Source: Methylococcales bacterium
GTDB lineage: Bacteria; Pseudomonadota; Gammaproteobacteria; Methylococcales; Methylomonadaceae
Assembly: GCA_030753675.1 (NCBI GenBank)
Contig: JASMBU010000003.1
Coordinates: forward strand, 62,001 to 126,000
Direction: 5' to 3'
DNA: 64,000 nt
The position numbers and the translations under genes are program-made. Below, in pieces: positions 1 through 24,510 of the stretch (position 1 is its first letter; every line of letters begins with the position of its first letter). The notes beneath the pieces are model-generated. The model did no database searches. It had not been told where the DNA came from and worked only from the letters and a program-made list of their open reading frames with translations.

Positions 1-433
1 TAGAAATAGACCTATCCGCTGTAATTAAAATATTTTTTAAGCTTCCGATCTCATTTAACGCTAGCTGCAAACTGGTAAATGTGTTCTCAGCGCCACTCTG
101 CTCATCTTTTACCCGATAGATATCCATCAAGGCGTGATAGCTAATTTGATAACGGTAAACAACCTCTGCTATCTTTTTATCCCATATAATCTCACGCGAC
201 TGCCATAGCCGAGCAGTAACAACCCACACCAAAGGAACTCCATTTTTTAGTGCTTTTTCAGCCTCCGCACCTAACTGCACACCCACGTCCGCATCCAAAA
301 CAACGCCTTGCTCACTTGCTCTGATCGCTTTTTTCAAAAACTGGATATTTTTTTGCTCATCCCCTACAGAACATGACAGACACAATAAAACACCCAGTAA
401 AACAACCCCTTTACTGCTTAACAATGACTGCAT
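1..433 (-). CDS. DUF4390 family exported protein (3' part cut by window edge)
   Basis: The reading frame runs from an ATG at 433-431 to the window edge, so about 144 N-terminal residues are visible. The start MQSLLSSKGVVLLGVLLCLS looks like a signal peptide, with cysteines near residues 17 and 20 that could be a weak lipobox. The body contains VVLDADVGVQLGAEAEKALKN, then NGVPLVWVV and a YRYQISYHALMDIYRV stretch, the pattern I associate with the DUF4390 family of exported proteins. The gene starts inside the end of rsmB (23 bp overlap), so it is translated in the same operon. In related genomes a DUF4390 gene often lies between rsmB and an ntrY-type sensor kinase. The biochemical role is unknown. 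Confidence 0.75.
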   Translation of the reverse strand, partial: MQSLLSSKGVVLLGVLLCLSCSVGDEQKNIQFLKKAIRASEQGVVLDADVGVQLGAEAEKALKNGVPLVWVVTARLWQSREIIWDKKIAEVVYRYQISYHALMDIYRVKDEQSGAENTFTSLQLALNEIGSLKNILITADRSIS

Positions 434-1697
434 AAAAAAAACCATCCATCCCATCATCTCCTGTTAAAATCTGGCGCCCACACCGACGCGCCTGGCCCCA
501 AGCCGCAGTAATTGCAACAGAATCAGCATCTTCCTGAGATGCTAAAAACTGCACAACCTGTTCCTCATTCTCCTGCTGCAAAACAGAACAAGTCGCATAA
601 ACAAGGCGCCCACCCGGCTTCAATAATGCCCAGATCGCACACATAATCTTCTGCTGTAGCTCTACAATAGCCGCTATATCTTTCGGCTGCCTCAACCATT
701 TTATGTCTGGGTGTCGCCGCACCACACCGGTTGCAGAACAAGGCGCATCCAATAAAATACGATCAAACAACACACCGTCCCACCAGTCTTCTGGCCGAGA
801 AGCATCACCCCGCACTAACTCAGCATCTAACGCTAAACGCTCCAAATTCTCTTTAACACGCGATAAGCGATTGGCATCAATATCTAAAGCCACAACGGCT
901 GCTAATGCCGGCTCCGTTTCTAAGATATGGGTTGTCTTCCCTCCAGGAGCAGCACAAACATCCAGTACTCGCTGACCCGGCTGCAAATCCAACACTGTAA
1001 CGGCTAATTGGGCCGCACTGTCTTGCACAAAAGAATGCCCCTCTGAAAAACCGGGCAACCGCTCCACAGCAATAGGTTTTTCTAAGACCAAAGCAGATGA
1101 ACAATGCGACACCATTGTGGCATTAATAGCCTGACTAGCTAAAACCGCCTGATATTGTGTTTGAGTATAATATTTTGGATTAACGCGAATAGTCATAGGG
1201 GGCTGCTGATTATTTGCCTTTAAAATAGCGTGCGCCTGATCTGGCCATTGTTCAACTAACATCTCAACCATCCAAACAGGATGTGCTTCTCGAATCGGCA
1301 AGTCTAACGTATTAATTTGTTGATCAAGCGCCTCTTGTTCTCTAAGGTATCTTCTCAAAAGCGCATTCAGTAAAGGCCGTGCCCAACTCTTTTTTCGAAC
1401 CGCTGAAACAGTCTCAGAAACGGCTGCATGAGGCTTAACCCGCATAAACTTAATCTGGTATAACCCGATCAAAGCGAGAATCTTAATATCCAGATCTTTA
1501 ATCGGTTTACGCGTCAAGACTCCTAGTAACGCCTCTAAATAAAAATACCAGCGCATCACACCAAAACACAACGCTTGGATAAAGGCACTATCTTTTTTTG
1601 ATTCCCCCCCCAACAATTCATCCAAAGCTAACGTTAAAGATACGTTATCTTTAAGAACCTTATACAAGGCCTTGGCCGCAATATGCCTAGAATTCAC
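411..1697 (-). CDS. rsmB: 16S rRNA (cytosine-967-C5)-methyltransferase RsmB
   Basis: RsmB uses S-adenosylmethionine to methylate C967 of 16S rRNA in the small ribosomal subunit. The 428-residue protein has the usual length. A NusB-like RNA-binding domain fills residues 1-130 or so. The SAM-binding motif VLDVCAAPGGKT lies at 244-255. The two cysteines needed in C5 methyltransferases are Cys320 (DAPCSATG) and Cys370 (YATCS). The start is a GTG at 1697; an in-frame stop lies just upstream, so no earlier start exists. It lies 61 bp behind fmt in a def-fmt-rsmB order that is standard in gammaproteobacteria, and its end overlaps the DUF4390 gene. Confidence 0.97.
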   Translation of the reverse strand: MNSRHIAAKALYKVLKDNVSLTLALDELLGGESKKDSAFIQALCFGVMRWYFYLEALLGVLTRKPIKDLDIKILALIGLYQIKFMRVKPHAAVSETVSAVRKKSWARPLLNALLRRYLREQEALDQQINTLDLPIREAHPVWMVEMLVEQWPDQAHAILKANNQQPPMTIRVNPKYYTQTQYQAVLASQAINATMVSHCSSALVLEKPIAVERLPGFSEGHSFVQDSAAQLAVTVLDLQPGQRVLDVCAAPGGKTTHILETEPALAAVVALDIDANRLSRVKENLERLALDAELVRGDASRPEDWWDGVLFDRILLDAPCSATGVVRRHPDIKWLRQPKDIAAIVELQQKIMCAIWALLKPGGRLVYATCSVLQQENEEQVVQFLASQEDADSVAITAAWGQARRCGRQILTGDDGMDGFFYAVIVKQ

Positions 1698-1758
1698 AAT
1701 GATTCACGAAAAACCTTCTACTCTAAAATTAATAAATAACGACTGTTCCCTCATAATG

Positions 1759-2688
1759 CTAACCAAACGTAACACCGGTAACATCATGTGCATTTAAAAA
1801 AGCTTCACTCGACATGCGTTTTCCACCCGGAAGTTGCACTTCCAATAATCGCAAAACCCCTTGGCCGGTCACCACTTCTAAAACGCGCTCTTTACTCTCA
1901 CGGACAGCACCTGACGGCTCCCCCTCGACAACCGACTCATACGCACAGGCACGCCAAATCCTTAAGACCTGACCATGGTATAAAGTCTGAGCAACAGGCC
2001 AAGAATTGAAACCTAGGACCTGCCTTGCCAGTATTACAGCTGATTTATTCCAGTCGATGAGCGCCTCATCTTTCTGCAACTTTTTGGCATAACACACGTC
2101 ACTTTCATCCTGTTCAACCCGAATAACATCACCTCGCTCAAGCAAAGGTAAAACCTTCTTAAGCCCAACTGCGCCCAAAACAGCCAATCTATCATGAAGT
2201 TCACTCGCACTTTCTTCAGGAATAATCCGATAGACTTCCTTATGTAGCATAGCGCCAGCATCAAGCTTCAGGGCCATCTCCATAATTGTAACGCCCGTTT
2301 CAACATCGCCTGAAATAATTGCTCTTTGTATTGGCGCCGCACCACGCCAACGCGGCAATAATGAGGCATGAACATTAATACACCCTAATCTTGGGGCATC
2401 CAAAATAACTTGGGGTAACAATAAACCATAAGCCACAACCACCATCAAATCAGCATCTAAACCGACTATTTCTGCCAATGCCTCGGGAGATTTTAAAGAC
2501 TCCGGTTGAAAAACAGGGGTTTGAGCAGATAAGGCTAGCGCCTTAACAGGGCTCATCTTCATTTTACGCCCTCTACCCGAGGGTCGATCAGGCTGTGTAT
2601 ACACCGCACAAACCTCATGTTCTGAATTTAAAATCATTTGCAATGTCGGCACTGCAAAGTCAGGTGTTCCTGCAAAAATCACTTTCAT
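1759..2688 (-). CDS. fmt: Methionyl-tRNA formyltransferase
   Basis: Fmt transfers a formyl group from 10-formyltetrahydrofolate to the initiator Met-tRNA. The 309-residue length is normal. The N-terminal Rossmann-like domain starts FAGTPDFAVPTL. The catalytic triad is visible as Asn105 and His107 in NVHASLLPRWRGAAP and Asp143 in KLDAGAM. The SLLPRWRG segment is the family signature. The C-terminal OB-like tRNA-binding domain begins near residue 205 (INFNSWP-like GFNSWPVAQT). It sits 30 bp downstream of def, so formylation and deformylation of initiator methionine are co-expressed. Confidence 0.98.
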   Translation of the reverse strand: MKVIFAGTPDFAVPTLQMILNSEHEVCAVYTQPDRPSGRGRKMKMSPVKALALSAQTPVFQPESLKSPEALAEIVGLDADLMVVVAYGLLLPQVILDAPRLGCINVHASLLPRWRGAAPIQRAIISGDVETGVTIMEMALKLDAGAMLHKEVYRIIPEESASELHDRLAVLGAVGLKKVLPLLERGDVIRVEQDESDVCYAKKLQKDEALIDWNKSAVILARQVLGFNSWPVAQTLYHGQVLRIWRACAYESVVEGEPSGAVRESKERVLEVVTGQGVLRLLEVQLPGGKRMSSEAFLNAHDVTGVTFG

Positions 2689-2718
2689 AACTGGGCAACC
2701 CTCAACTTAATACACCCC

Positions 2719-3234
2719 TTATTTATTACCGGATCGGTAGGTTTTATGAATTTTCTCCATTTTTTTCTTAATCCGTTGCCGCTTAAGAGGCGATAAATAA
2801 TCCACAAATAATTTACCACTTAAATGATCTATTTCATGCTGAATACAAATAGCTAACATTCCCTCAGCAGATAACTCAAACGCATCACCATCCCGATTAA
2901 GCGCAGAAACAACCACGTTCTCTGCACGCTCAACCTTCTCAAAAAAACCCGGAACAGACAGGCACCCCTCTTCAGAAACCTCCGAACCTTCTTGCTCAAT
3001 GACTTCAGGATTTACCAAACAAAGCGGCGCATCTTTTTCTTCACTGACATCCATCACAATAATCCGCTCATGAAAATCAACCTGTGTAGCCGCCAGACCG
3101 ATCCCATTGGACTCATACATAGTTTCAAACATATCATCAATCAACGTGCTGCGCATCGAATCAATCGCTTCGACTTGTGTAGCTACCTTGCGCAAACGTT
3201 CATCGGGAAATTCAAGAATCGTCAAAATACTCAC
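2719..3234 (-). CDS. def: Peptide deformylase
   Basis: Def removes the formyl group from the N-terminal methionine of new proteins. All three motifs of a type 1 deformylase are present in the 171 residues: GIGLAATQ at 44-51, EGCLSVP with metal ligand Cys91, and QHEIDHLSG with ligands His133 and His137 and catalytic Glu134. The start codon is GTG (3234) with an AAGAAG-like ribosome site upstream. It is the first gene of the def-fmt-rsmB operon and is divergent from the broken dprA. The LysM-domain gene that often lies between def and dprA in related bacteria is absent; only 144 bp separate them. Confidence 0.98.
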
Positions 3235-3378
3235 AACTGTCTTCTTACCTTAATTCTAAAAAAAATATCATTTTATCTGATTTAACCTAAACTTTGAACG
3301 ACCCGACCTAAAAACGCAATTGATTACCTTTATTCATTAACCGTTCCTCGCACGACGCCTAGACCACACCTCATTGCC

Positions 3379-4377
3379 ATGACCTCCAATCACAACATTA
3401 AATTCTGGTGCGCGCTCCTACGCACCCCTAAAATTGGCTATCATACATTCAACAAATTACTTTTAAAAACCACGCACGAAGAATTATTTAGCCATTCATC
3501 GAAAGACTTACGACACTGGGGACTCCACCCTTTAAGCATCCAAGCACTTCAAAATCCTAACTAGACTGATGTTCAAAAAGACTTAGACTGATTAAATCAA
3601 GACGACCCTAAATCACTATGCACCCCTCAATTGGCCATTGTCAGCAGTCGTAACCCATCAATTACAGGTTTAGAAACGGCACATCAATTTTCAAACTCAC
3701 TGGCACGACTAGGATTCACCATAACCAGCGGACTAGCTCTCGGCATCGACGGTGCTTACCACGAAGGAGCACTCAGCGCTCAAAAAGAAACCATCGCGGT
3801 TATGGGAACAGGACTGGATCGTATTTACCCCACACGACACCATGCTCTTGCTAAGAAAACAACAACACTAGGCGTACTGGTTTCTGAATTTCCAATTGGT
3901 ACACCAGCCATGGCCTACCACTTCCCGCAAAGAAATCGCATCATTAGTGGTTTATGTTCAGGGCTTCTAGTCATTGAAGCTACAAAACGCAGTGGTTCAC
4001 TAATAACCGCTAAAATGGCTCTTGAACAAAATCGAGAAGTTTTTACCATTCCTGGTGCAATTAACAACCCATTAGCATAAGGTTGCAACGCACTCATTCA
4101 AGAAGGCGCTAAGTTAACAACCCACTATCAAGATATTCTGGAAGAATTTAACATTCTTCCAGGCCCGACCCCAATCACTTCCCCTCAACCCACCTTAGAC
4201 ACACTTTCCATCAGTCAAAAAAATATTCTAAAAGCCGTATGATTTAATCCCACTGGGATTGATAATATTGTCGAACACACCCGACACCCGACCCATTTAA
4301 TTCTATCAACTTTGTTACAATTGGAAATATTAGGCTTCATTTCATCAGAGAATGGGTTCTATACACGTCTAAAATAA
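3379..4377 (+). pseudogene. dprA: dprA (DNA processing protein A), broken by four in-frame stops
   Basis: DprA loads RecA on single-stranded DNA during natural transformation. One uninterrupted frame of 333 codons covers the gene, with stops at codon 62 (TAG, 3562), 71 (TGA, 3589), 234 (TAA, 4078) and 288 (TGA, 4240) before the natural TAA at 4375. No frameshift is needed. Conserved DprA parts remain: GLALGIDGAYHEGAL, TIAVMGTGLDRIYP, SEFPIGTPAMAYHFPQRN and, after the third stop, GCNALIQEGAKL. A C-terminal winged-helix-like end (NPTGIDNIVEHT) also survives. The gene keeps its usual place in front of smg and topA. It is most likely a recent pseudogene. The stretch between stops two and three could still make a Rossmann-fold fragment, though nothing suggests that it does. 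Confidence 0.9.
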
Positions 4378-4415
4378 CTGAAACGTACTAACAAAAACCG
4401 TGTCATAATGCACCT

Positions 4416-4883
4416 ATGAAAGAAAATATCTTTGAAGTTTTAATGTATTTATTTGAGAACTACCTAGAAGAAGTCGATGATGCTTTAACCAATTCAAACA
4501 AAATAAGAAATGAATTGCTTACCGCGGGCTTCGAACAAAAAGAGGTAGACAAAGCCTTTGAATGGCTAGAATCTCTGTGTGCAGAAAATACAGTTCATTG
4601 CCCAACAAGTTCTTCTTTTCGAGTCTTTAGCACACAAGAAGTCGCCCGTTTAGACACCGAATGCCGTAACTTTATTATTTTTCTAGAACATTCTGGGATT
4701 CTGTCTTCAACTAACCGTGAATTAGTAATAGACCGATTAATCGCACTTGATAATGAAGATATTTCATTAAAAAAACTACAATGGGTCGCGCTAATGGTCT
4801 TGCTGAGTCAACCTGATGAAGAAGTCGCCTTTACCCGGATGGAAAATATAATTTACGAAGATAGCTCTCCCTCTTTGCACTAA
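4416..4883 (+). CDS. smg: Smg family protein (DUF494)
   Basis: Smg is a small acidic helical protein of uncertain role found next to dprA and topA in beta- and gammaproteobacteria. The 155-residue protein begins MKENIFEVLMYLFENYLEE, the characteristic Smg start, and ends with the usual EEVAFTRMENIIYED segment. No catalytic motif can be seen. It lies 38 bp after the dprA relic and 117 bp before topA, in the conserved dprA-smg-topA order. It is intact although dprA is broken, which suggests that it has a separate role or promoter. Confidence 0.93.
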   Translation: MKENIFEVLMYLFENYLEEVDDALTNSNKIRNELLTAGFEQKEVDKAFEWLESLCAENTVHCPTSSSFRVFSTQEVARLDTECRNFIIFLEHSGILSSTNRELVIDRLIALDNEDISLKKLQWVALMVLLSQPDEEVAFTRMENIIYEDSSPSLH

Positions 4884-5000
4884 AAGCATAGTGGGAAATC
4901 ACACACAAACTTTTGTGTTTCCTCAAAAGTCTCTGGACTTTACCCCTTTGAATTCTTTATTATTCAAAAAAACAAACAACGGTCCTTACAGATTATACCC

Positions 5001-7310
5001 ATGAGCAATAATCTCGTCATCGTAGAATCACCGGCAAAAGCCAAAACAATAGAAAAATATTTAGGTAAGGATTTTCATGTCCTCGCCTCCTATGGGCATC
5101 TTCGTGACCTCATTCCTAAAGAAGGCGCTGTTGATACTCAAAATGACTTTGCGATGAAATATGAGGTCATAGAAAAAAATCAACGACACGCCCAAGAAAT
5201 ATCAAAAGCTACCCGCAAAGCAGATGCACTCTATCTGGCCACTGACCCCGATCGCGAAGGCGAGGCCATTGCTTGGCACCTGTTAGAACTGCTACAAAAT
5301 AAAAAAATCATCAAAGAAAAACCCGTCCACCGCATAATTTTTCATGAAATAACCAAAAAAGCAGTCACTGAGGCGGTAGCAACGCCCCAAAAATTATCAA
5401 TAAACATGGTCAATGCGCAACAAGCACGACGCGCCCTAGATTATTTAGTGGGCTTTAACTTATCCCCGTTGTTGTGGAAAAAAATCCGCCGCGGGCTGTC
5501 TGCTGGACGCGTACAAAGTCCGGCGTTACGCATGATTGTTGAACGTGAGCTAGATATTGAAAAATTTGTAAGCCGAGAATACTGGTCTGCAAATGCGGCT
5601 ATAACCAGTGACACACAAGCATTTAAGGCCAAGCTTACCCGCTTCAACGATAACAAAATTACACAATTTAGCATCGAAAACGAAGCACAAGCTCAAGATA
5701 TTCAAACCACCATCCTCCAAGAGGCTAACGGCCAATTATTAATTGACACTGTTGAAAAGAAAAAACGCAAACGAAACCCAGCACCACCCTTCATTACTTC
5801 AACACTGCAACAAGAAGCCGCACGAAAGCTTGGTTTTACCACCAAAAGAACCATGATGATTGCCCAACAACTGTATGAAGGCGTTTCTCTACAGGGTGAA
5901 TCTATTGGTTTAATCAGCTATATGCGAACAGACTCTGTTAATTTAGCCGCAGAGGCTGTGACTGAGATTCGTGAATTAATTAGCAACAAGTATGGCCCGA
6001 GTTACGTTCCTAAACAGCCGCGTCAATTTAAAACTAAATCTAAAAATGCGCAGGAAGCTCACGAAGCCATTAGACCCACTGAATCATCAAGAACACCCGA
6101 TGCTATTAAAAACCACCTAACACCGGATCAAACCAAACTTTATTCACTAATCTGGAAACGGACTGTTGCTTCGCAAATGATCCATGCCACTATCGACAGT
6201 GTCTACGCTGACCTATCTTGTGGTACGCAACACACCTTTCGGGCAAACGGCTCAACCATTGCGAACCCTGGGTTCATGTCGGTCTATTTAGAAGGAACAG
6301 ATGACACTAAAAAAAGCGACGATCAGGAATCATTTTTACCCCCCTTAACCAAAGGTGAATTTGTTCAATTAGACGAAATCATTCTCGGACAGCATTTTAC
6401 TGAACCCCCGCCCCGATTTGGTGAAGCCAGCTTGGTTAAAACTCTAGAAGAATATGGCATTGGCCGTCCGTCCACCTATGCTTCTATTATTTCTACGTTA
6501 CAGAACCGCGAATATGTCACTTTAGAAAAAAAGCGCTTTTACCCAACCGATGTTGGACGTATCGTTAATAAGTTTTTAACTGAACACTTTACCCAATATG
6601 TCGATTACCAGTTTACCGCTAACCTAGAAGACAATCTTGATGCCGTTGCTCGAGGTGAAAAAGAATGGATTCCGCTTATGCGAGAATTCTGGCAACCGTT
6701 CACCAATCTCATTCAAGATAAAGAAGAAAGCGTACAACGTAAAGACGTCACACAAGAAAGCTTAGACGAAAACTGCCCTGAATGTAATAAGCAATTGTCT
6801 ATTCGACTAGGTCGCAACGGTCGCTTTATCGGTTGCACTAATTACCCCGAGTGTTCTTATACCCGTAATTTAAATGATGATGCTCAATCAGCTGAACCTC
6901 AAATTATTGAAGGTCGTTCTTGCCCTAAATGTCAGCAAAACCTGATTATTAAAACCGGTCGATATGGGAAATTTATTGGCTGTAGCAGCTACCCTGACTG
7001 CAAGCATATTGAACCCCTCGAAAAGCCATTAGATACAAAAGTTCACTGCCCTAAGTGCGAAAAAGGTAACATCCTTAAACGTAAATCAAGAAATGGTAAA
7101 GTTTTTTATTCCTGTGAAAAATACCCTAAATGTGACTACGCAATCTGGAATGCACCGGTCCAAGAAAACTGTCCAGAATGTAATTGGCCCGTACTCGCCT
7201 TAAAAACAACGAAAAGACGTGGTACAGAAAAGGTATGCCCTCAAAAAGAATGCAAATTTGCAACCCCTTATGAGGGCGATCCAGAAGATGCAGAAGGCCC
7301 TAAAAGTTAA
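5001..7310 (+). CDS. topA: DNA topoisomerase I
   Basis: TopA relaxes negative supercoils by transient single-strand cleavage. The 769 residues start with the Toprim domain (VIVESPAKAKTIEKYLG, and DPDREGEAI carrying acidic metal ligands). The active-site tyrosine is Tyr307 in GLISYMRTDS. The C-terminus carries four zinc-ribbon units starting near residues 591, 640, 682 and 723, each with CPxC-type pairs. The last (NCPECNWPVL...KVCPQKEC) is diverged but keeps its cysteines. E. coli TopA is 865 residues, so the tail is somewhat shorter. The gene has a 117-bp leader after smg. Confidence 0.98.
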   Translation: MSNNLVIVESPAKAKTIEKYLGKDFHVLASYGHLRDLIPKEGAVDTQNDFAMKYEVIEKNQRHAQEISKATRKADALYLATDPDREGEAIAWHLLELLQNKKIIKEKPVHRIIFHEITKKAVTEAVATPQKLSINMVNAQQARRALDYLVGFNLSPLLWKKIRRGLSAGRVQSPALRMIVERELDIEKFVSREYWSANAAITSDTQAFKAKLTRFNDNKITQFSIENEAQAQDIQTTILQEANGQLLIDTVEKKKRKRNPAPPFITSTLQQEAARKLGFTTKRTMMIAQQLYEGVSLQGESIGLISYMRTDSVNLAAEAVTEIRELISNKYGPSYVPKQPRQFKTKSKNAQEAHEAIRPTESSRTPDAIKNHLTPDQTKLYSLIWKRTVASQMIHATIDSVYADLSCGTQHTFRANGSTIANPGFMSVYLEGTDDTKKSDDQESFLPPLTKGEFVQLDEIILGQHFTEPPPRFGEASLVKTLEEYGIGRPSTYASIISTLQNREYVTLEKKRFYPTDVGRIVNKFLTEHFTQYVDYQFTANLEDNLDAVARGEKEWIPLMREFWQPFTNLIQDKEESVQRKDVTQESLDENCPECNKQLSIRLGRNGRFIGCTNYPECSYTRNLNDDAQSAEPQIIEGRSCPKCQQNLIIKTGRYGKFIGCSSYPDCKHIEPLEKPLDTKVHCPKCEKGNILKRKSRNGKVFYSCEKYPKCDYAIWNAPVQENCPECNWPVLALKTTKRRGTEKVCPQKECKFATPYEGDPEDAEGPKS

Positions 7311-7352
7311 TAGCTAATCTTATTTTTCAATCACTTAATGTCTCATTCTCTG

Positions 7353-7358
7353 TATAAT
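7353..7358 (+). promoter_or_regulatory. Candidate -10 box of the purEK promoter
   Basis: A perfect TATAAT, preceded directly by TG, lies 30 bp before the purE start. The -35 region 17 bp upstream is not recognisable. It overlaps the descending part of a weak AGCTAAT...ATTAGCT pair followed by seven T, which could be the topA terminator. The call rests on sequence only. Confidence 0.4.
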
Positions 7359-7388
7359 TAGCTTTTTTTGATCATCAGGAGGTCTTGA

Positions 7389-7886
7389 ATGACCGTGTTA
7401 ATTGGAATTATCATGGGTTCAACATCGGACTGGGAGACCATGCAACATGCTGTGCAAATACTTGAGAAATTCAATATCCTTCATGACGTAGAGGTCGTAT
7501 CGGCTCACAGAACCCCCGACAAACTTTTTGATTATGCTGAAACGGCTGAATCAAAGGGCATTGAAGTCATCATCGCAGGTGCTGGCGGCGCTGCTCACTT
7601 ACCGGGAATGACTGCTGCAAAAACACATCTACCCGTTCTCGGCGTCCCTATTCAATCCAAAGCATTAAATGGAATGGATTCTCTGCTATCGATTGCCCAA
7701 ATGCCAGCCGGTATTCCTGTTGGAACATTAGCTATTGGTAAAGCCGGTGCCATTAATGCCGCACTCTTAGCAACAGCCATACTGGCAAACAAATACCCTG
7801 AATACCGTACTGCTCTAAAAGCATACCGAACCGAACAAAGCCATACTGTCTTACAATCACCGGACCCTCGACGAGTACAATCATGA
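7389..7886 (+). CDS. purE: N5-carboxyaminoimidazole ribonucleotide mutase
   Basis: PurE converts N5-CAIR to CAIR in purine synthesis, using the product of PurK. The 165-residue class I protein shows GSTSDW at 10-15, the active-site SAHRTPD at 38-44 with the catalytic His40, and [12 protein letters not shown] at 63-74. An AGGAGG-like site (tcaggagg) precedes the ATG. The stop codon overlaps the purK start as ATGA, so the two are translationally coupled. Confidence 0.98.
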
Positions 7887-8974
7887 AAGTAGGTATTTTA
7901 GGGGGCGGGCAATTAGCTCGGATGATAGCGCTAGCTGGCTACCCACTCGGACTTGACTTCGTTATCATTGACCCCAGTAATGTTGCAGGAGCTATTGGCT
8001 TAGCAGACCATCTACACGGCGCCTACGATGACAAAGGCCTGCTACAAGAATTAGCACGCCAAACCGATATTGTGACCTACGAATTTGAAAATGTACCAGC
8101 CAACATTGCTCAATTCTTAGCGCATCACACTCAAATTGCACCTTGTGATCGGGCGCTTGCAATTGCACAAGACCGCTTAATAGAAAAAAAGTTTTTTAAT
8201 AACCTAAATATACCCACGACAAGCTTTGCCGCAGTCAATTCGCTCAATGACCTTGAACAAGCCAACAAAACCATTGGACTTCCAGCTATACTAAAAAGCT
8301 GTCGAATGGGTTATGACGGTAAAGGTCAAGTACCACTACAAGGATCCGAAGACTTGGCAAGCGCCTGGAATTCAATGCGCAACACCCCATCTATCATTGA
8401 AGGGTTTGTCCCCTATACACGGGAAGTATCCATTATTGCCGCACGTCGCCCTTCAGGCGAAACCGTCTATTATCCACTCTCAGAAAACAGTCATAGTCAG
8501 GGTATTTTAAGAGTATCACGTTGTTGTATCGATGACCCTAAGCAACAAGAAGCTGAACAATATCTTTCTCGTATATTGGAAGAACTTGATTATGTCGGCG
8601 TCATCGCTTTAGAGCTTTTCGACGTTCAAGGACAACTGTTGGCCAATGAATTTGCTCCCCGTGTCCATAACTCTGGCCACTGGACTATAGAAGGCTCAGA
8701 AACCAGTCAATTTGAAAACCATCTACGAGCAATATTAGACTGGCCATTAGGCTCTACTCAATCAACCGGCTATTCCGGCATGGTGAATTTTATTGGCGGC
8801 CTGCCCCCAGCAAAACAAGTGTTAGCCATTAAAAATACACATCAGCATCTCTATGCTAAACAACCTCGCCCTGGCCGAAAAGTGGGTCATGCAACGGTTA
8901 GAACTAACGATCAGGCCTTATTTGAATCATCTTTAGACAAGCTCATACAATTAGCAAAACAACACAGCTCCTAA
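7883..8974 (+). CDS. purK: N5-carboxyaminoimidazole ribonucleotide synthase
   Basis: PurK is an ATP-grasp enzyme that makes N5-CAIR from AIR, bicarbonate and ATP. The 363 residues open with [11 protein letters not shown], the family signature. The ATP-grasp core shows [16 protein letters not shown] and the metal-binding [24 protein letters not shown]. The next step is carried out by the overlapping purE. Length and motifs are normal. Confidence 0.98.
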
Positions 8975-9047
8975 GTTGGCGAAGAAGGAAAATCAACAAA
9001 GGTTATTCAACCGCTGACTTTTTTTCACGTTCTAAGCATTAATCACT

Positions 9048-9605
9048 ATGCCATATATTTCATCTTTTAAAACACGACTCTTTACACAACACCTTCTTCA
9101 AGGTCAGGTGATCGCCTACCCAACCGAAGCCGTTTATGGTCTCGGTTGCGACCCACTTAATGGTGAGGCCGTCACCCAATTGCTAACCCTTAAGCAACGC
9201 CCTATAGAAAAAGGACTCATCTTGATCGCCTCATCATTTGATCAACTCATCCCTTACCTTACGCTCGACGATAATGATCGTATTCAACAGATGCTATCAA
9301 CTTGGCCCGGCCCAACCACTTGGGTCGTCCCGGCACAGCATTGGGTTCCACCATGGCTTCGTGGCGAACATTCCAGCTTAGCTGTCCGCGTTACAAGCCA
9401 CCCTATCGCCGCCGCATTATGTAAAGCATTTAATGGCCCTATTGTTTCAACCAGCGCCAATATCAGCGACAAACCTGCTGCAAAAACACCCGTAACCGTC
9501 AAAAAACAATTAGGGCTTTCTGTCCCTATTTTTACTGGTGAGCTCAGCAAACTACAACAAGTCACCCCCATATACGACCTGATAACTGGACAACAATTTC
9601 GTTAA
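9048..9605 (+). CDS. tsaC: Threonylcarbamoyl-AMP synthase (YrdC/Sua5 family)
   Basis: TsaC forms threonylcarbamoyl-AMP from threonine, bicarbonate and ATP for the t6A37 modification of ANN-decoding tRNAs. The 185-residue length fits the short TsaC/YrdC form without the Sua5 extension. The motifs are IAYPTEAVYGLGCDP near residue 20, KQRPIEKGLILIA, LAVRVTSHP and GPIVSTSANISDKPA. It follows purK after 73 bp and ends convergently with the phosphopantetheinyl transferase. Confidence 0.95.
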   Translation: MPYISSFKTRLFTQHLLQGQVIAYPTEAVYGLGCDPLNGEAVTQLLTLKQRPIEKGLILIASSFDQLIPYLTLDDNDRIQQMLSTWPGPTTWVVPAQHWVPPWLRGEHSSLAVRVTSHPIAAALCKAFNGPIVSTSANISDKPAAKTPVTVKKQLGLSVPIFTGELSKLQQVTPIYDLITGQQFR

Positions 9606-9647
9606 ACAATCGACAATTGAGAACCTCTTTTACAGCTAAAAAAATCA

Positions 9648-10328
9648 CTACCAATAACGATAAATCAATTTACACTCAGATCCGTCTGTTGTCATCGCAG
9701 CACTTAACCCCAAAGGAACATTCAGATCAATCACTCGCCAGTCCGATGGTTGACCACAATTATTAGGAACACTCAACACCTTAACAGGTGCCCGAATTGA
9801 CATCTCACATAATTTAAGCCCTAATGAAATACCCCGCCCCACTGCCTTTACAAAAGACTCTTTACGAGTCCAAATACGATAAAACGTGACCTTTTTATCC
9901 TCAGATTCTAATTGTTGCCACTGCCTTAATTCTGAGTCAGAAAAACATTTTTCAGCCAAGGGGTCTAAATTAACCCGTTTGCGACAGACCTCTATATCTA
10001 TGCCAATTTGGCGCTGACACCCTAAAGCAATCACCAGGTGATCACCGGTATGTGATAAATTAAAAACAACTTGCTCGCCCTTTCTTTGCCGTACATAGGG
10101 CTTACCAAAAGGGCCTTGAAACAATTCAACAGCCGCACAATTAACGCCCATGTAGTCCGCCAATAACTGCCTTAAGATAGCTCTCGAAATAACAAACCGT
10201 TGCCGAACCTTAATCACCTTAAGACTTTCTGCCCGGTACCTCTCACTCGGTGACAATAAGGCCCAACTTTTCGAATAATCACCCTGAGTCAAATCTGCAA
10301 ACCATAGTTGAATAATTGATTTTTCCAT
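9648..10328 (-). CDS. 4'-phosphopantetheinyl transferase superfamily protein (Sfp/HetI type)
   Basis: This enzyme moves phosphopantetheine from CoA to a serine of a carrier protein. The 226-residue length is that of the Sfp/Gsp/HetI type rather than the short AcpS. The motifs are FNLSHTGDHLVIAL, the metal-binding GIDIEVCRKRV and WTRKESFVKAVGRGI. It begins 5 bp after the end of the ggt gene, so the two probably share a transcript. The carrier-protein substrate cannot be told, because no polyketide or peptide synthase is nearby. It may serve fatty-acid ACP if AcpS is missing elsewhere. Confidence 0.9.
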   Translation of the reverse strand: MEKSIIQLWFADLTQGDYSKSWALLSPSERYRAESLKVIKVRQRFVISRAILRQLLADYMGVNCAAVELFQGPFGKPYVRQRKGEQVVFNLSHTGDHLVIALGCQRQIGIDIEVCRKRVNLDPLAEKCFSDSELRQWQQLESEDKKVTFYRIWTRKESFVKAVGRGISLGLKLCEMSIRAPVKVLSVPNNCGQPSDWRVIDLNVPLGLSAAMTTDGSECKLIYRYW

Positions 10329-10333
10329 GCCGT

Positions 10334-12028
10334 TTATTTCACCAAAGCTAAACCTTCACCACGAGAATCACTCGCCGCCGTCATAACCTGTTTATCCTTC
10401 TGCCATGACACCGCCTGCATATCGCCATAATGCTTGCTTGTTTCTTCCAAACGGTGCCCACGCAACTGCAGTGCTTTAATTTCAGCTAACGTCAACGCAC
10501 CGGGTTCATACTGCACCTGATCAGGTAAATATTGATGATGAAAACGCGGTGCATCAACCATTGCTTGAACGTCAGCGCCTTGAGTAATCTCTAAAATGGC
10601 CACGACAAGCATCGAAATAATACGACTCCCTCCGGGCGTACCTAAAGCGACAATACGCTGCTTATCCTCAATAAATGTCGGCGTCATACTCGATAACATT
10701 CGTTTACTTGCGACAATTGAGTTTGCTTCTCCACCGGTTAAGCCATAGCCATTCACAGCCCCTATACGGCTCACAAAATCATCCATCTCATTATTTAATA
10801 CCACACCAGTTCCCGGCGCCACAAATCCAGAACCAAATGGAAAATTTATACTTAATGTTGCTGCAACGCGGTTACCTTCATGATCCATAATTGAAAAATG
10901 CGTTGTATCTTCTCCACCGGCTTGAACTGCTAACGGTCCATTTAAAAAAACACTGGGTAATGCTTGGTCAAATTGCATCGATACTCTCAATCCAGCCGCA
11001 TAATCAATACTTAATAATTGCTCGACTGGAATCTTAACAAAATCAGGATCACCTAAATAAACAGCTCGGTCTCTGTACGCTCTTCGCATCGCCTCAATAA
11101 TTAAATGTTTTCGTAGATCAGGTGACATCATTTCTAATGGATAGCCGGATAAAATATTCAGCACTTCAAGCAAAACAATTCCACCAGAAGACGGCGGTGC
11201 TGCACTGGTTATTTTAACGCCTCGATAGCTTCCAAATACCGGCTTACGCTCAACAACGTGATAGGCGTCTAAATCAGCTTGCGTCCAAATGCCCCCACCC
11301 GCCTGAACACCATTGACAAGTAAGCTTGCTACTTCACCTTGATAAAATCCAGCCCAACCAAAAGTCGACAACAAGCGCATGGTTCGTGCCAAATCCTTTT
11401 GCCGTAACAAAAAACCAACTGCCGGTATTTGTCCTTGATCTTTGAAAATAGTCTGCAATGCACTATTAACTGTCATCTGACTTATTCGGAACTGCAATAG
11501 ACGACGAAACCGTTGGCTAACCCTAAAACCTTTTTCCGCCAAATTAATTGCTGGCTGAAGTGTTACTGATAATGGTAAGCGCCCATAGTGCTCAGATAAA
11601 TAAACCAATCCAGCAGGTAAACCTGGCACGCCAGCCGAAAGTGGCCCCTGCGTTGAGGCACCCTTGATTACTTGACCTTGTTCATCTTGAAACATCCTCT
11701 GATAGGCCGCTAGCGGTGCCTTTTCTCGGGCGTCTATCATCACATCAACGTTATCATCTTCCCGATGCAATAAAAAGAAACCACCTCCTCCCAACCCTGA
11801 CCCTTGTGGCTCAACTACAGACAAAACCGAAGCAACCGTAATCGCCGCATCAAAGGCATTCCCTCCTGCATCTAAAATTTCAAGCCCCGCATGAGTGGCT
11901 AATGGATGCGCTGATGCTATTGCCATTGGCTTTGACTGGGCACAACTTATAGAATTAATTACCCCATAAATAACAAAAATAATTACCGTCATAGATGATT
12001 TAAGTTGCCTAACAATTGAAGTAGCCAT
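10334..12028 (-). CDS. ggt: Gamma-glutamyltransferase (glutathione hydrolase)
   Basis: Ggt is an exported N-terminal-nucleophile hydrolase that removes or transfers the glutamyl group of glutathione and related compounds. A signal peptide spans roughly residues 1-31 (hydrophobic VIIFVIYGVINSISCA). The autocleavage site and nucleophile is the first Thr of GEDTTHFSIMD, near residue 375, giving large and small subunits. The PFGSGFVAPGTGVVLNNEMDDF and TPGGSRIISM segments are typical of the small subunit. The start is the ATG at 12028; a GTG one codon upstream is possible. It is divergent from the garR-like gene with little space between. Confidence 0.96.
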   Translation of the reverse strand: MATSIVRQLKSSMTVIIFVIYGVINSISCAQSKPMAIASAHPLATHAGLEILDAGGNAFDAAITVASVLSVVEPQGSGLGGGGFFLLHREDDNVDVMIDAREKAPLAAYQRMFQDEQGQVIKGASTQGPLSAGVPGLPAGLVYLSEHYGRLPLSVTLQPAINLAEKGFRVSQRFRRLLQFRISQMTVNSALQTIFKDQGQIPAVGFLLRQKDLARTMRLLSTFGWAGFYQGEVASLLVNGVQAGGGIWTQADLDAYHVVERKPVFGSYRGVKITSAAPPSSGGIVLLEVLNILSGYPLEMMSPDLRKHLIIEAMRRAYRDRAVYLGDPDFVKIPVEQLLSIDYAAGLRVSMQFDQALPSVFLNGPLAVQAGGEDTTHFSIMDHEGNRVAATLSINFPFGSGFVAPGTGVVLNNEMDDFVSRIGAVNGYGLTGGEANSIVASKRMLSSMTPTFIEDKQRIVALGTPGGSRIISMLVVAILEITQGADVQAMVDAPRFHHQYLPDQVQYEPGALTLAEIKALQLRGHRLEETSKHYGDMQAVSWQKDKQVMTAASDSRGEGLALVK

Positions 12029-20060: not shown

Positions 20061-20702
20061 CTAACCCAGCACGTTTACCAGTTTCTTACCTACACGCCCA
20101 AAAAAACTAGGTTCCAATATTTGCTTAGCTTGCAACGTTTCAAGTGCATCTGGGAAATAGTTTTGCAAACCCTGATAAAAAACTTTTGCTAATGTAGTAT
20201 CACCTGAAAAATTAAAATAACAACACATCACTAATGCAAAAGAAGTATATTCTGATGGATGGAAACGATTACGCCGTGGATAGAGTGCCTTTAAATCAAA
20301 CTTATTATCAAAGATCTTCGGTATCTGGTCAAAATGTTTACGCTGAATACATAACTGCGCAAAATGACAACGCGCAATAAGATTATTCGAATTGACCCGG
20401 TAATTGTCTTCAATACAGCGCTCTTGTTGCGCAACATCACTATGACCATAAGCAGCAGATAAATAATTATATAAAGTCGGTACTTTCGGGTACGTATTTT
20501 TCAAGGATTCCAATTCTGGAATAACCAATTCAGCCTCCTTGTCCATTCGCTCATACAGCGCATTAGCTTGTTGTTGAATGGCTTCTGGAAGTTTAAAAAA
20601 CTTAGCGTCCATGACAGCATCGTAACCAATCTCAAATCCAGATTGGGTTATTTTCTTATTTTTATCTGGCGCCCTATGGACATTTTTTTTATTTTTAGCC
20701 AT
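20061..20702 (-). CDS. Uncharacterised helical-repeat (TPR-like) protein
   Basis: I do not recognise this 213-residue protein. The first 20 residues are basic (MAKNKKNVHRAPDKNKK). The middle looks like tetratricopeptide-type helical pairs: a LYNYLSAAYG stretch, then IARCHFAQLCIQRKHFDQIP and FALVMCCYFNFSGDTTLAKVFYQGL. No signal peptide or membrane segment is seen. It follows the DUF2058 gene by 26 bp on the same strand. A scaffold or interaction role is a guess from the repeat pattern. Confidence 0.7.
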   Translation of the reverse strand: MAKNKKNVHRAPDKNKKITQSGFEIGYDAVMDAKFFKLPEAIQQQANALYERMDKEAELVIPELESLKNTYPKVPTLYNYLSAAYGHSDVAQQERCIEDNYRVNSNNLIARCHFAQLCIQRKHFDQIPKIFDNKFDLKALYPRRNRFHPSEYTSFALVMCCYFNFSGDTTLAKVFYQGLQNYFPDALETLQAKQILEPSFFGRVGKKLVNVLG

Positions 20703-20728
20703 TGTAACTCATCATTTTTTACGGTTAG

Positions 20729-21277
20729 TTACCAAATTAAATCATCAGGAATTTTATAGTCAGCGTATACATCTTCATCGTCTGCGGTATTTACTAACAA
20801 ATCCCGTTCATTCGCAATAACGATCAAATGCGCATCACGTTGTCTTATTTTATCCGCAACAACGACAGGAATTACCTCATAGGCTTGACCCGAGCGAACA
20901 ATCGCTAATCGCCCTTTTATTAAGTGTTCACGAACCTTATCAGAGAGATAAAGTGTCTTTACCTTCGTACCATCAGAAAAGTTAAACCCTGTCCCCTCTG
21001 GCTCGTGCGGTAATTTATTCAGCTCAATTAATTGTTTAATTTGAGCCACCACGGCCATTTTTTCCGCCTGCTCCTTGATTTGCCGATTAAGTTCACGGTC
21101 TTTCTCAACTTTGAGTTGTTGCTGCTTTTGAAACTGCTCTTTGGTTTCATTAACCGTTTCAATCTTATGCTTACGTTGTTGCTTTAAATTTTTATGTTTT
21201 TCTGATCGAACCTTTTTAGCTTTAGCATCATTCACCAAGCCGGCTTTTAATAACTGATCACTTAACGAATTTCCCAT
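20729..21277 (-). CDS. DUF2058 family protein (YaiL-like)
   Basis: The 182-residue protein begins MGNSLSDQLLKAGLVNDAKA and continues with a long charged helix rich in Lys, Glu and Gln (about residues 20-75), then a small beta-rich domain (FSDGTKVKTLYLSDKVREHL and GRLAIVRSGQAYEVIPV). This is the pattern of DUF2058, E. coli YaiL. The helix suggests nucleic-acid or ribosome contact, but the role is not established. It lies 55 bp downstream of the small membrane protein gene. Confidence 0.88.
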   Translation of the reverse strand: MGNSLSDQLLKAGLVNDAKAKKVRSEKHKNLKQQRKHKIETVNETKEQFQKQQQLKVEKDRELNRQIKEQAEKMAVVAQIKQLIELNKLPHEPEGTGFNFSDGTKVKTLYLSDKVREHLIKGRLAIVRSGQAYEVIPVVVADKIRQRDAHLIVIANERDLLVNTADDEDVYADYKIPDDLIW

Positions 21278-21332: not shown

Positions 21333-21869
21333 TTAAAAACAATTCGAATAATCAAAGAACATTCCTTGGCAATCAAAAAACACCCGTGGAAATTTAATCC
21401 GAATAAATATTCGGAATCCAAAATCTAAAAAAGCCGCTAACGTTACCAGACGAGCCGCCGCAGACCACATTCGGTGTTTCGTATAAATTGACATACGCCA
21501 CGTTGCTATGGTCCACCAAAAGGTTGTGGTTAGACATGTTAGCAGTAATGTATCCCAACTCGGTACACTAAAAGCTGTATTTCGTACCAACCAATCACCC
21601 CCGGCAAGTAAGACATTCAATACAATACAGAAAGGCCAAAAAACCTGCCACAACGGCAGTCGCCCATACCAAGCATCGTAAAAATAAGGGGCAACACTTC
21701 GAATATGCACAGAGTCTTGATGTAATTTTGTAGGTACCTCTAGATGATATTCACTCAGGGGTGAGCTAATATAAAGAAGTACCAATAGCATTAAAGTAAT
21801 TCCAGACAACAACCAAGGGCTCAAAAAAATAATCTGCTCAGAGATAACGGGGAGAGTAAAAAAAAACAT
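21333..21869 (-). CDS. Small multi-pass membrane protein of unknown function
   Basis: I do not recognise this protein. Using the ATG at 21869 (a TTG two codons upstream is possible) it has 178 residues and probably four membrane segments, near 10-33, 72-90, 103-122 and 138-155. A conserved-looking soluble loop (VAPYFYDAWYGRLPLWQ) separates the first two. The C-terminus ends in a cysteine- and aromatic-rich tail. It lies 36 bp after the coiled-coil gene and is probably the third gene of the same operon, so it may be a membrane partner of that system. Confidence 0.7.
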   Translation of the reverse strand: MFFFTLPVISEQIIFLSPWLLSGITLMLLVLLYISSPLSEYHLEVPTKLHQDSVHIRSVAPYFYDAWYGRLPLWQVFWPFCIVLNVLLAGGDWLVRNTAFSVPSWDTLLLTCLTTTFWWTIATWRMSIYTKHRMWSAAARLVTLAAFLDFGFRIFIRIKFPRVFFDCQGMFFDYSNCF

Positions 21870-21904
21870 AATCAAGTATGATAAAAAAGTTTTTAAAAAA
21901 TTAT

Positions 21905-23260
21905 TTAGCTATTATGGTCTTCTTTAATAAACTCCACCTGTTGTTCTAATTCGGCCCGTTGTTTTTCCAAAACTAACAATTCAATTTCGCGCAGTAAAAA
22001 TTCGTCTGATTGCTTTGTCACTTCAAATCGTTTTCTTTGCTCCTCTTGCTTTGCTTCCAATTCAAGATCAAGTAACCGTGAATCATGTTTTAATTGCTCA
22101 ATTTGTATTCTCTCATCCAACTTCTGCTTAGCAACCATCCTGAGTTCTTGCTCGGCAATCTCTTTTTCTAATTGCTTCTCTTTAAAATGATTTTCTTGGA
22201 TGATTTTTTGTTCCTGAATTTCTGCATCCGCTTCCATCCGACGCAACTGTCTCTTCTCATGTTCTTGAAGATCGAAAACTAACTGTTTTTCATTAATACG
22301 CTCGGTATGGATAAAGCCTATTTTTTGCCTCTTTTTCTCAGCTGTGTGCTCAACTTCCTGCGCTTCAGACAGGCGATCAGAATCGGCCTTAACTTCAAGT
22401 TGCTTAATTGCCGTTTCATGTTTTAATTCACGCTCACGAAGCTCTCTTTCAACAACAAATTGTGCTTCTTTTTGTTGCCCCCATTCCACTAGCTGACGTT
22501 TTAAACTGTCTGAATTTTGTTCTTGATGCTGACTTCTAAAATCTGCCTCTTCAGAAAACTGATCTAACTTCATCTGCTTTTGTTCCATTTTGATTTCGTG
22601 CAACAACTCCTCTTCACGCAATAATTCTTCCTTCTTTTTAACGGTGAATTCGAAATTTTTACGCATCACTTCTAAATACTGTACCTGATAAACAAATCGA
22701 TGATCAAAAACATGATCTTCTTCTAATTCCTCAAACAACGGTTCTAATTTGCAAACTGCACGGCATTGAATATCTTGTACCATTAATGTTTCTTGAATAA
22801 TATTTTCAACTTCTTTCTCAGTATCCTCTAACCCAAAAGCTATCCACTGACCATCTTCTAATTTCCGTAACTCACCTGCCAAGATATCCAATACCAATCC
22901 TTGATAACTCTGCTTAATTAATGCCGTCAGTTGTGGGATAAATTCCATATTTAAACGTGCAAATTCATAGCTTGCCTGAAAACGCAATTGTAAAATGATA
23001 TTCACTGTGCAAAAACCACCAAACAAAACACAGGTTTCATGTAACTCCCAATCTTCAATAGGTAATGGGTAAGCCTTTCTATAAAACCGTTGGACATACT
23101 TCTCTGGCTTGGGATAACAACGTAAATAAGGGCCTATCTTAGCCACCACCATTTGTCTTCCCGCAGAAAAACCAGGGTCCCAAACAACGCTATTAGAGCT
23201 TTTTTTATCTTGTGTCAGTCCGGCGATAATTTCATCCAAAGGAAATAATTGATCGGTCAT
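21905..23260 (-). CDS. Coiled-coil protein with an SPFH-like N-terminal half, function unknown
   Basis: The 451-residue protein has a compact N-terminal region (1-195) and then an almost unbroken charged coiled coil (about 200-445, rich in Glu, Gln, Lys). Within the first part, CTVNIILQLRFQASYEFARL followed by helices and ENIIQETLMVQDIQCRAVC resembles the beta-strand then helix layout of SPFH (stomatin/flotillin) domains. This is my reading of the pattern, not a proven match. No membrane segment is visible, unlike usual stomatins. Its start overlaps the stop of the upstream membrane protein as ATGA, so the two are coupled and probably interact. Confidence 0.7.
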   Translation of the reverse strand: MTDQLFPLDEIIAGLTQDKKSSNSVVWDPGFSAGRQMVVAKIGPYLRCYPKPEKYVQRFYRKAYPLPIEDWELHETCVLFGGFCTVNIILQLRFQASYEFARLNMEFIPQLTALIKQSYQGLVLDILAGELRKLEDGQWIAFGLEDTEKEVENIIQETLMVQDIQCRAVCKLEPLFEELEEDHVFDHRFVYQVQYLEVMRKNFEFTVKKKEELLREEELLHEIKMEQKQMKLDQFSEEADFRSQHQEQNSDSLKRQLVEWGQQKEAQFVVERELRERELKHETAIKQLEVKADSDRLSEAQEVEHTAEKKRQKIGFIHTERINEKQLVFDLQEHEKRQLRRMEADAEIQEQKIIQENHFKEKQLEKEIAEQELRMVAKQKLDERIQIEQLKHDSRLLDLELEAKQEEQRKRFEVTKQSDEFLLREIELLVLEKQRAELEQQVEFIKEDHNS

Positions 23261-24510
23261 AACGATTGCTCATCCACAGGACCTGAACCCAAGTTATTAT
23301 TCTCAAGCCCTTTCAATTTAACACCTAAACGATCTACAATTAACGGGTATAGGTTAGGGGCAAACTCTACGGTTCGCCGATCAATTTTGCGTAAAAAACC
23401 TCGGCTTAACAAAAAACCCACCGCAAACATTCGAGACCAATCCGAATAACGCCGTGCTTTTTCTATCGGACTCTTTTCTATGATCATTTCTAGTTCATCA
23501 TTCTCATTAATCCTAAATTCATTAAACTCACGAATACATTGAAAAACCAAATCTTCTTCTTGTTCTGTCAACGGTGCAGGCGCTTTAAACTCAAGTCGAT
23601 AAGAAAGTAAAACGGTAAAAAAATCGACCATGGCTGCACACACTAATGCAAAAATAGACAACCCCCCCTCCCACATTGCAAAAGAAGGCTTAACACCCTG
23701 CGTATACTCCCCATAGGTCATTAATACCGGCGCTTGTGGAATAACATGACCGACTTGGAAAGCAACCTGATGAAAACTCAACTGTACGGTTTGTAAACTC
23801 CTCTGAACCGACTGATACTTGTTTTCCATCGGCATGGATTGCACCATCCCCAAAGAATTTAAATTAGATTGCATTTCCCTAATGCCCTCATCTAATAAAA
23901 TAAAGGTTTCTTCTAATCGTTTATTTTCCTCTTGCTTGTTCTGATAAAGCTCATTAAAGCGTTTCCAAAAAGGACCTTGCCCCACTTGATTTTTATAATG
24001 TCTAGATATATCAGGATGGGTGCCAAAATACGCCGCTGAAACTTCCTTTGAAGCCTGAGCCAGTTCTGCGCGTTTTTGTTCAAAAATATCAGTCTTCAAA
24101 CTGACAATACTATTAATATAATCTTCAACTTGTTGGCGCACTTCGACTAATTTGTTGTTTTGTAGCGTTTCGCGCTCTGAAACTTCGTAAAATTTAAAAT
24201 ATGAAAAAGAAATCGATGCTGCCAGCGAAATAACCAAGGACAGTAAGACAGAAAAATACCTGAAGCGATTTGCGCGCCAATGAATACCGGCTAATTCCAG
24301 CGAACAAATAACAATAATAGATTGAATGGCGATGGTTATCACCAAGGCGATCCAGGGAATAATAAAATGGGACATCCCATAAAACGTGGTAAACCCAGAG
24401 GCAACACTTAACATCAAAACAATAGGAATTGTCCAGATTCTTAATGACGACACAAACAAGGTCTGAATCTGATTAATGACTACGCCAAAAGTACTCTGGT
24501 TTCTGCTCAA
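23257..24510 (-). CDS. Membrane protein with large extracytoplasmic helical loop, function unknown
   Basis: I do not recognise this 417-residue protein. Four membrane segments are seen near 25-46, 48-72, 84-105 and 283-304. Between the third and fourth lies a 175-residue helical, coiled-coil-like region that should be periplasmic if the N-terminus is inside. The 110-residue cytoplasmic tail contains a helical part and a winged-helix-like end (FLLSRGFLRKIDRRTVEF). The layout recalls DUF4407-type proteins, without firm motif support. The start is TTG (24510) with GGGGT upstream. It is the first gene of a three-gene operon with the coiled-coil and small membrane proteins. Confidence 0.7.
   Translation of the reverse strand: MSRNQSTFGVVINQIQTLFVSSLRIWTIPIVLMLSVASGFTTFYGMSHFIIPWIALVITIAIQSIIVICSLELAGIHWRANRFRYFSVLLSLVISLAASISFSYFKFYEVSERETLQNNKLVEVRQQVEDYINSIVSLKTDIFEQKRAELAQASKEVSAAYFGTHPDISRHYKNQVGQGPFWKRFNELYQNKQEENKRLEETFILLDEGIREMQSNLNSLGMVQSMPMENKYQSVQRSLQTVQLSFHQVAFQVGHVIPQAPVLMTYGEYTQGVKPSFAMWEGGLSIFALVCAAMVDFFTVLLSYRLEFKAPAPLTEQEEDLVFQCIREFNEFRINENDELEMIIEKSPIEKARRYSDWSRMFAVGFLLSRGFLRKIDRRTVEFAPNLYPLIVDRLGVKLKGLENNNLGSGPVDEQSL

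Follow-up and report, generated by a model that had tools for sequence, protein, structure and literature searches.

Three adjacent genes on the minus strand of a 1.7-Mb Methylococcales genome raise the question of whether they form a single undescribed system and, if so, what such a system might do. The genes, designated A, B and C in their order on that strand, lie in a window of 64,000 nucleotides, which is the whole stretch of DNA analysed (Table 1). The bin OPU3_GD_OMZ is a relative from the same genus. An earlier sequence-only reading had taken the three genes for one operon encoding two membrane proteins and a soluble coiled-coil protein.

Gene content and extent of the conserved unit

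All three open reading frames proposed by the sequence-only reading were found on the minus strand, and within the genus each showed purifying selection (dN/dS of 0.06-0.13 for A, 0.10-0.21 for B and 0.09-0.12 for C). They are therefore genes and not chance reading frames. The coupling of A and B through an ATGA overlap was likewise seen. The spacing between B and C is 35 bp if C starts at the ATG at 21869, which its relatives favour, and 29 bp if it starts at the TTG at 21875. The strand continues downstream of C with a DUF2058 gene and one that is TPR-like (window positions 20061-21277). None of the three products had been recognised at the outset, and searches of Pfam, NCBIfam, PADLOC and the sequences in the PDB gave no noteworthy match either.

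Table 1. Coordinates in the window of the three genes and of the segments discussed in the text
Feature	Position	Strand	Basis and remarks
Gene A	23257..24510	(-)	membrane protein, 417 aa, TTG start; ORF list and AlphaFold2 model
A residues 153-184, predicted periplasmic hairpin tip (AYFGTHP..VGQGPFW)	23959..24054	(-)	conservation exceeds that of the stems
A residues 286-308, predicted TM4	23587..23655	(-)	near-invariant D296 and T299 within the helix; SYRLE after it
A residues 309-395, predicted cytoplasmic winged-helix-like domain	23326..23586	(-)	conservation 0.81
A stop/B start overlap, ATGA	23257..23260	(-)	sequence
Gene B	21905..23260	(-)	soluble protein, 451 aa, predicted SPFH fold and long coiled coil
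B residues 27-178, predicted SPFH domain	22727..23182	(-)	AlphaFold2, pLDDT mostly 83-93 over residues 31-170
B residues 189-450, predicted coiled coil	21911..22696	(-)	AlphaFold2; C-terminal segment 421-440 conserved
Gene C	21333..21869	(-)	about 178-180 aa, hydrophobic, about 4 TM; outside the conserved unit

A and B co-occur. Of 101 relatives, 72 carried A and 73 carried B; the sole discordant genome (G097) has only a B fragment, which runs from base 3 of its contig. In 79 independent loci (genome_contigs), B came immediately after A 77 times, with an overlap or a gap no larger than 10 bp; the larger negative gap values arise from the choice of the longest reading frame. The surroundings of these 79 loci varied from genus to genus, and their partly annotated neighbour clusters contained no recurrent third gene and no pspA operon. 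C was not conserved with the other two. Judged by its hydrophobicity it has about four TM helices; it matched no Pfam family, and its own family has invariant C-terminal residues (C169, Q170, D175 and C179). This family occurred in 50 of the 101 relatives, sometimes in two copies and mostly unlinked to A-B, and was also present in genomes that lack the pair (for example G011, G017 and G018). Because C adjoins A-B only in this genus and in one other lineage (L051 and L144), a conserved three-gene system was rejected and the three-gene operon does not stand as a system. The conserved unit consists of two genes, A and B, and C is an independent family that happens to be their local neighbour. The combination to which the sequence-only reading had drawn attention, a putative membrane anchor together with an SPFH-like coiled-coil protein, is conserved across Methylococcales.

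Within this order A was found in 138 of 201 genomes, a count that includes one marginal match which is probably not real (G082, E 9.9e-4). Sampled gammaproteobacteria outside Methylococcales yielded no A except for one marginal match of 41 residues, and a wider sample of the phylum yielded no clear full-length relative of A. Among the sampled genomes the A-B pair is thus confined to Methylococcales. About 30% of Methylococcales genomes lack it, and it is therefore not essential. The identity of A was 89-96% within the genus, mostly 57-65% within the family and 46-54% to other families; this fall with taxonomic distance agrees with largely vertical inheritance accompanied by repeated losses. 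Searches of mobile elements revealed no relatives of A (plasmids, phages and viral contigs), of B (phages) or of C (plasmids). In PADLOC no defence family was matched with any weight, the only match of A being a partial one of 39 residues to PtuA (E 0.0013), which we read as noise from helical composition. A mobile or defence system was rejected on these results and because identity tracks taxonomy.

Predicted structures of A and B

B was modelled with AlphaFold2 from 40 homologues (mean pLDDT 79). The model comprises a strand-rich alpha/beta domain (residues 36-176) followed by long helices (residues 189-314 and 323-450), and B has neither a TM helix nor a hydrophobic N-terminal segment. When the model was compared with the PDB by Foldseek, all of the 32 best matches were SPFH proteins, among them flotillin (9l3g, the best match, E 7.5e-6), erlin, prohibitin, HflK/C, stomatin and QmcA. 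Several of them share with B the order of an SPFH domain followed by a long helix. VIA-align gave Z scores of 8-10 for prohibitin (10.4), flotillin (9.5) and erlin, but unrelated entries reached 7.6-8.8 (ribosomal proteins up to 8.8, FliL about 8), so this comparison alone is not decisive. Sequence comparisons gave no such signal. Band_7 (PF01145) did not match B at E<=1 or any of the 40 homologues at E<=0.1, hhalign against alignments of HflK, HflC, stomatin and QmcA returned a probability of about 1%, and a search of the sequences of solved structures produced only V-ATPase coiled-coil noise. As there was no Band_7 match and no significant hhalign result, the assignment rests on the predicted fold, by which B is predicted to be a divergent SPFH-fold protein. 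The SPFH-like front that had been suspected from the sequence was thus borne out by the structure prediction (AlphaFold2, Foldseek and VIA-align) and not by profile comparison, and the supposed coiled coil of 245 residues came close to the modelled length of about 260.

It might be argued that B resembles SPFH proteins in topology only, that it derives from some other family combining an alpha/beta domain with a coiled coil, and that A-B is an unrelated lineage-specific system. The absence of a sequence or profile signal to Band_7 would fit this, as would the ribosomal proteins and FliL in the VIA-align results. However, the uniform top of the Foldseek results and the shared domain order speak against it, and we consider it quite improbable. 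The same genome carries two recognisable Band_7 genes, which are adjacent on one contig (C22) and correspond in size and order to HflK and HflC. As an SPFH protein, B would be the product of a third, cryptic SPFH gene and would illustrate that Band_7 models undercount such proteins.

The length of B homologues varies between 328 and 570 aa, which would suit a coiled coil that acts as a spacer and tolerates changes in length. Near its end conservation is 0.70 (block 421-430) and 0.66 (block 431-440). The coiled coil grows by internal tandem duplication, with 58-residue repeats at one locus (L108, 48 of 60 positions identical) and a 98-residue repeat at another (L105, 52 of 60).

The AlphaFold2 model of A (mean pLDDT 75.8) contains helices at residues 5-44, 52-75, 82-162, 180-219, 228-253 and 286-308, followed by a small mixed C-terminal domain with the DSSP order H-E-E-H-H-E-E-H. 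The predicted topology is three TM helices, a periplasmic helical hairpin, TM4 and a cytoplasmic winged-helix-like domain. Helix 82-162 would represent TM3 continuing into the periplasm, from which helices 180-219 and 228-253 return. The loop that connects TM2 to TM3 is basic (HWRANRFR), so that by the positive-inside rule both termini are placed inside and the hairpin outside. Some 54 residues of the hairpin extend beyond the membrane, which at a calculated 1.5 Å per residue corresponds to about 80 Å. Conservation is highest in TM2 (0.90), TM1 and TM4 (0.87 each) and the cytoplasmic domain (0.81). In the hairpin the normalised conservation of the tip (0.66) exceeds that of the stems (0.51 and 0.48), and A153, A160, Y161, G163, V176, G177, G179 and W182 of the tip are invariant or nearly so.

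A belongs to an unknown family. No sequence of a solved structure was matched, and in Pfam and NCBIfam there was no match to NfeD and none above cut-off to a channel or transporter family. Foldseek found no significant match to the model in the PDB (all E > 0.07); the best, though non-significant, matches of the C-terminal domain were winged-helix regulators, including those of the CRP/FNR and MarR type. VIA-align returned mostly helical bundles, which are little informative, and the sensor domains of TorS and McpZ were among the top matches of the hairpin. A could accordingly be imagined as a membrane signalling protein or one-component regulator whose hairpin senses a ligand or the state of the wall, whose winged helix binds DNA or a regulator, and for which B is a cofactor or a sequestering scaffold. 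The fold of the C-terminal domain, the conserved tip and the sensor-domain matches speak for such a regulator, although long helical bundles match easily and no regulator was matched significantly. Moreover, the helix that would serve for recognition (DWSRMFAVGFLLSRG) is hydrophobic and resembles a protein-protein surface, and a regulator would leave unexplained why A is strictly paired with an SPFH protein. We think a regulator unlikely.

The TM helices of A contain conserved polar residues (T59, Q63, E72, S99, D296 and T299). Together with the very high conservation of these helices, this may suggest a channel, a transporter or an ion-coupled protein that is regulated or clustered by B as channels are by stomatins. 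Each chain has only four TM helices, however, and the family searches lend the idea no support, so that we hold a channel or transporter to be rather improbable. Outside the order, a distant relative of A was seen in an 822-aa protein from another proteobacterial bin (L173, positions 100-2568), which matched in the membrane core (E 1.4e-7) and has a TM4-like segment with an Asp. Its contig, 3 kb long, shows no recognisable partner of the B kind, and the protein has no relatives in its own order. Given this protein, A may be part of a wider undescribed superfamily.

Genomic context in methanotrophs

In one genus, Methylomonas, A-B is tied to the sigma-E cluster: the gene order there is rpoE-rseA-rseB-mucD-cysM-A-B-DUF4136, and the pair lies at the end of the cluster. 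Four genomes of the Methylomonas group were examined at this place. One has cysM-A-B-DUF4136 (G752); in two others mucD-cysM is kept and A, B and the DUF4136 gene are missing together (G771 and G820); the fourth has no A-B and no cysM there either (G831). At one Methylomonas locus (L068, positions 3500-10993) a DUF4136-like lipoprotein gene follows B. A sigma-E-like promoter upstream of A was found at 1 of 75 loci, against a mean of 2.0 in shuffled sequences. There is thus no enrichment, sigma-E control of A-B cannot be general, and a general sigma-E promoter was rejected.

Methylococcales is an order known for its internal membranes. SPFH proteins organise membranes and A-B is restricted to this order among the sampled genomes, which might suggest that the pair shapes the intracytoplasmic membranes carrying particulate methane monooxygenase (pMMO). 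However, in at least 19 genomes reported to be 95-100% complete pmoA is present and A is absent (examples of this combination are G018, G025, G029, G052, G769, G771, G773, G792, G820, G821 and G831), and at the A-B loci examined we noticed no linked pmo genes. A-B is therefore not required for pMMO. These genomes weaken its interpretation as a component of pMMO or of the internal membranes, and we regard it as very improbable.

A putative membrane scaffold and its nearest known counterparts

On balance, and with moderate confidence, we favour the view that A and B are the two components of a membrane scaffold specific to Methylococcales, with B as the SPFH component, A as its anchor and a role in envelope stress. 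B would have lost its own membrane anchor or never had one, and probably oligomerises in the cytoplasm through the SPFH domain and the long coiled coil in a flotillin-like manner. A would be the dedicated integral-membrane partner that holds B at the inner membrane, with the contact probably made by its highly conserved cytoplasmic winged-helix-like domain. The helical hairpin of A would project about 80 Å into the periplasm, where the conserved tip may dock to or sense something. The likely role of such a scaffold would be to organise or protect the inner membrane under envelope stress. The binding of A to B, the assembly of B into a ring or cage, sensing and the function in envelope stress are what we infer. 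Sensing of force or stress, which had already been proposed from the sequence, can only be conjectured; the conjecture draws indirect support from the position of the pair in the sigma-E cluster of Methylomonas and from the conserved periplasmic tip of A. The best reading of A-B is a new SPFH subfamily, specific to this lineage, and its own transmembrane partner, which together probably act as a scaffold in envelope homeostasis. A bolder and tentative version, which we hold possible at most, is that an unanchored new SPFH subfamily is wired through the four-helix protein A to a periplasmic sensor tip about 80 Å away, and that the two form a scaffold of the flotillin type through which, in methanotrophs, the inner membrane is coupled to the condition of the cell wall or periplasm.

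SPFH proteins occur throughout life, and their membrane recruitment and role are often unclear. If the favoured interpretation is correct, A-B adds to them a subfamily missed by sequence models, together with a dedicated partner in the membrane that belongs to no recognised family, and offers in cultured methanotrophs a simple two-gene system for the recruitment of a soluble SPFH scaffold and possibly for reading the periplasm. A literature search, which was not exhaustive, found no paper connecting SPFH proteins with methanotrophs.

The nearest published logic is that of YdjI of Bacillus subtilis, which is encoded in the pspA-ydjGHI operon (sigma-W). This SPFH protein depends on the integral membrane proteins YdjG/H to localise to the membrane, and under stress it recruits PspA (PMC8581546). 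Both cases have an anchorless SPFH protein encoded beside integral membrane proteins, although recruitment by A is presumed here, and both have a context of envelope stress (sigma-W there, the sigma-E cluster in Methylomonas here). In contrast, A-B lacks a recurrent pspA-like third gene and belongs to a different phylum, and A is a single 4-TM protein of no recognised family with a predicted periplasmic helical hairpin.

Of the features of the SPFH superfamily B has the predicted fold and the coiled coil that follows it but not the N-terminal TM helix or hairpin that most, though not all, subfamilies carry; this is also absent from YdjI (PMC8581546) and from SPFH8 and SPFH9 (PMC2636767). These two of twelve prokaryotic subfamilies are predicted to be soluble, as B is; compared by description only, they differ in that the portion of the classification consulted here describes no conserved membrane partner for them (PMC2636767). 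Flotillins (SPFH2) resemble B in that a long coiled coil comes after the SPFH domain and there is no conventional TM helix (PMC2636767; cage structure, PMC11260169), and a flotillin is the best Foldseek match of B. They differ in that B has no detectable sequence homology to them and would have a separate membrane partner that is not NfeD. The SPFH-NfeD pairs (QmcA-YbbJ, PDB 8z5g) likewise join, in a two-gene unit, an SPFH protein with a small multi-TM protein. Proteins of the QmcA type, however, have their own N-terminal TM helix, and in place of NfeD similarity A has the large periplasmic hairpin and the winged-helix-like domain. The SPFH genes of Pseudomonas aeruginosa have a patchy, lineage-specific distribution, and their phenotypes are subtle (PMC13086221); this, together with the soluble subfamilies mentioned above (PMC2636767), fits the pattern of A-B.

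The layout of A is also similar to that of another family. DUF4407 (PF14362) proteins consist of TM helices, a long helical extracytoplasmic loop and a last TM helix; we know of no winged-helix domain among them. A scored 13.4 bits against this model (gathering cut-off 31.3) with a match confined to the helical loop, 14 of 40 A homologues gave weak matches (best 4.6e-6), and hhalign of A against three DUF4407 members returned a probability of 1.4%. Membership of A in DUF4407 is thus not supported by the Pfam score or by hhalign. At one locus (L174, positions 313-4539) a DUF4407 gene is accompanied, in the same run of genes, by two more multi-TM proteins that have long helical loops.
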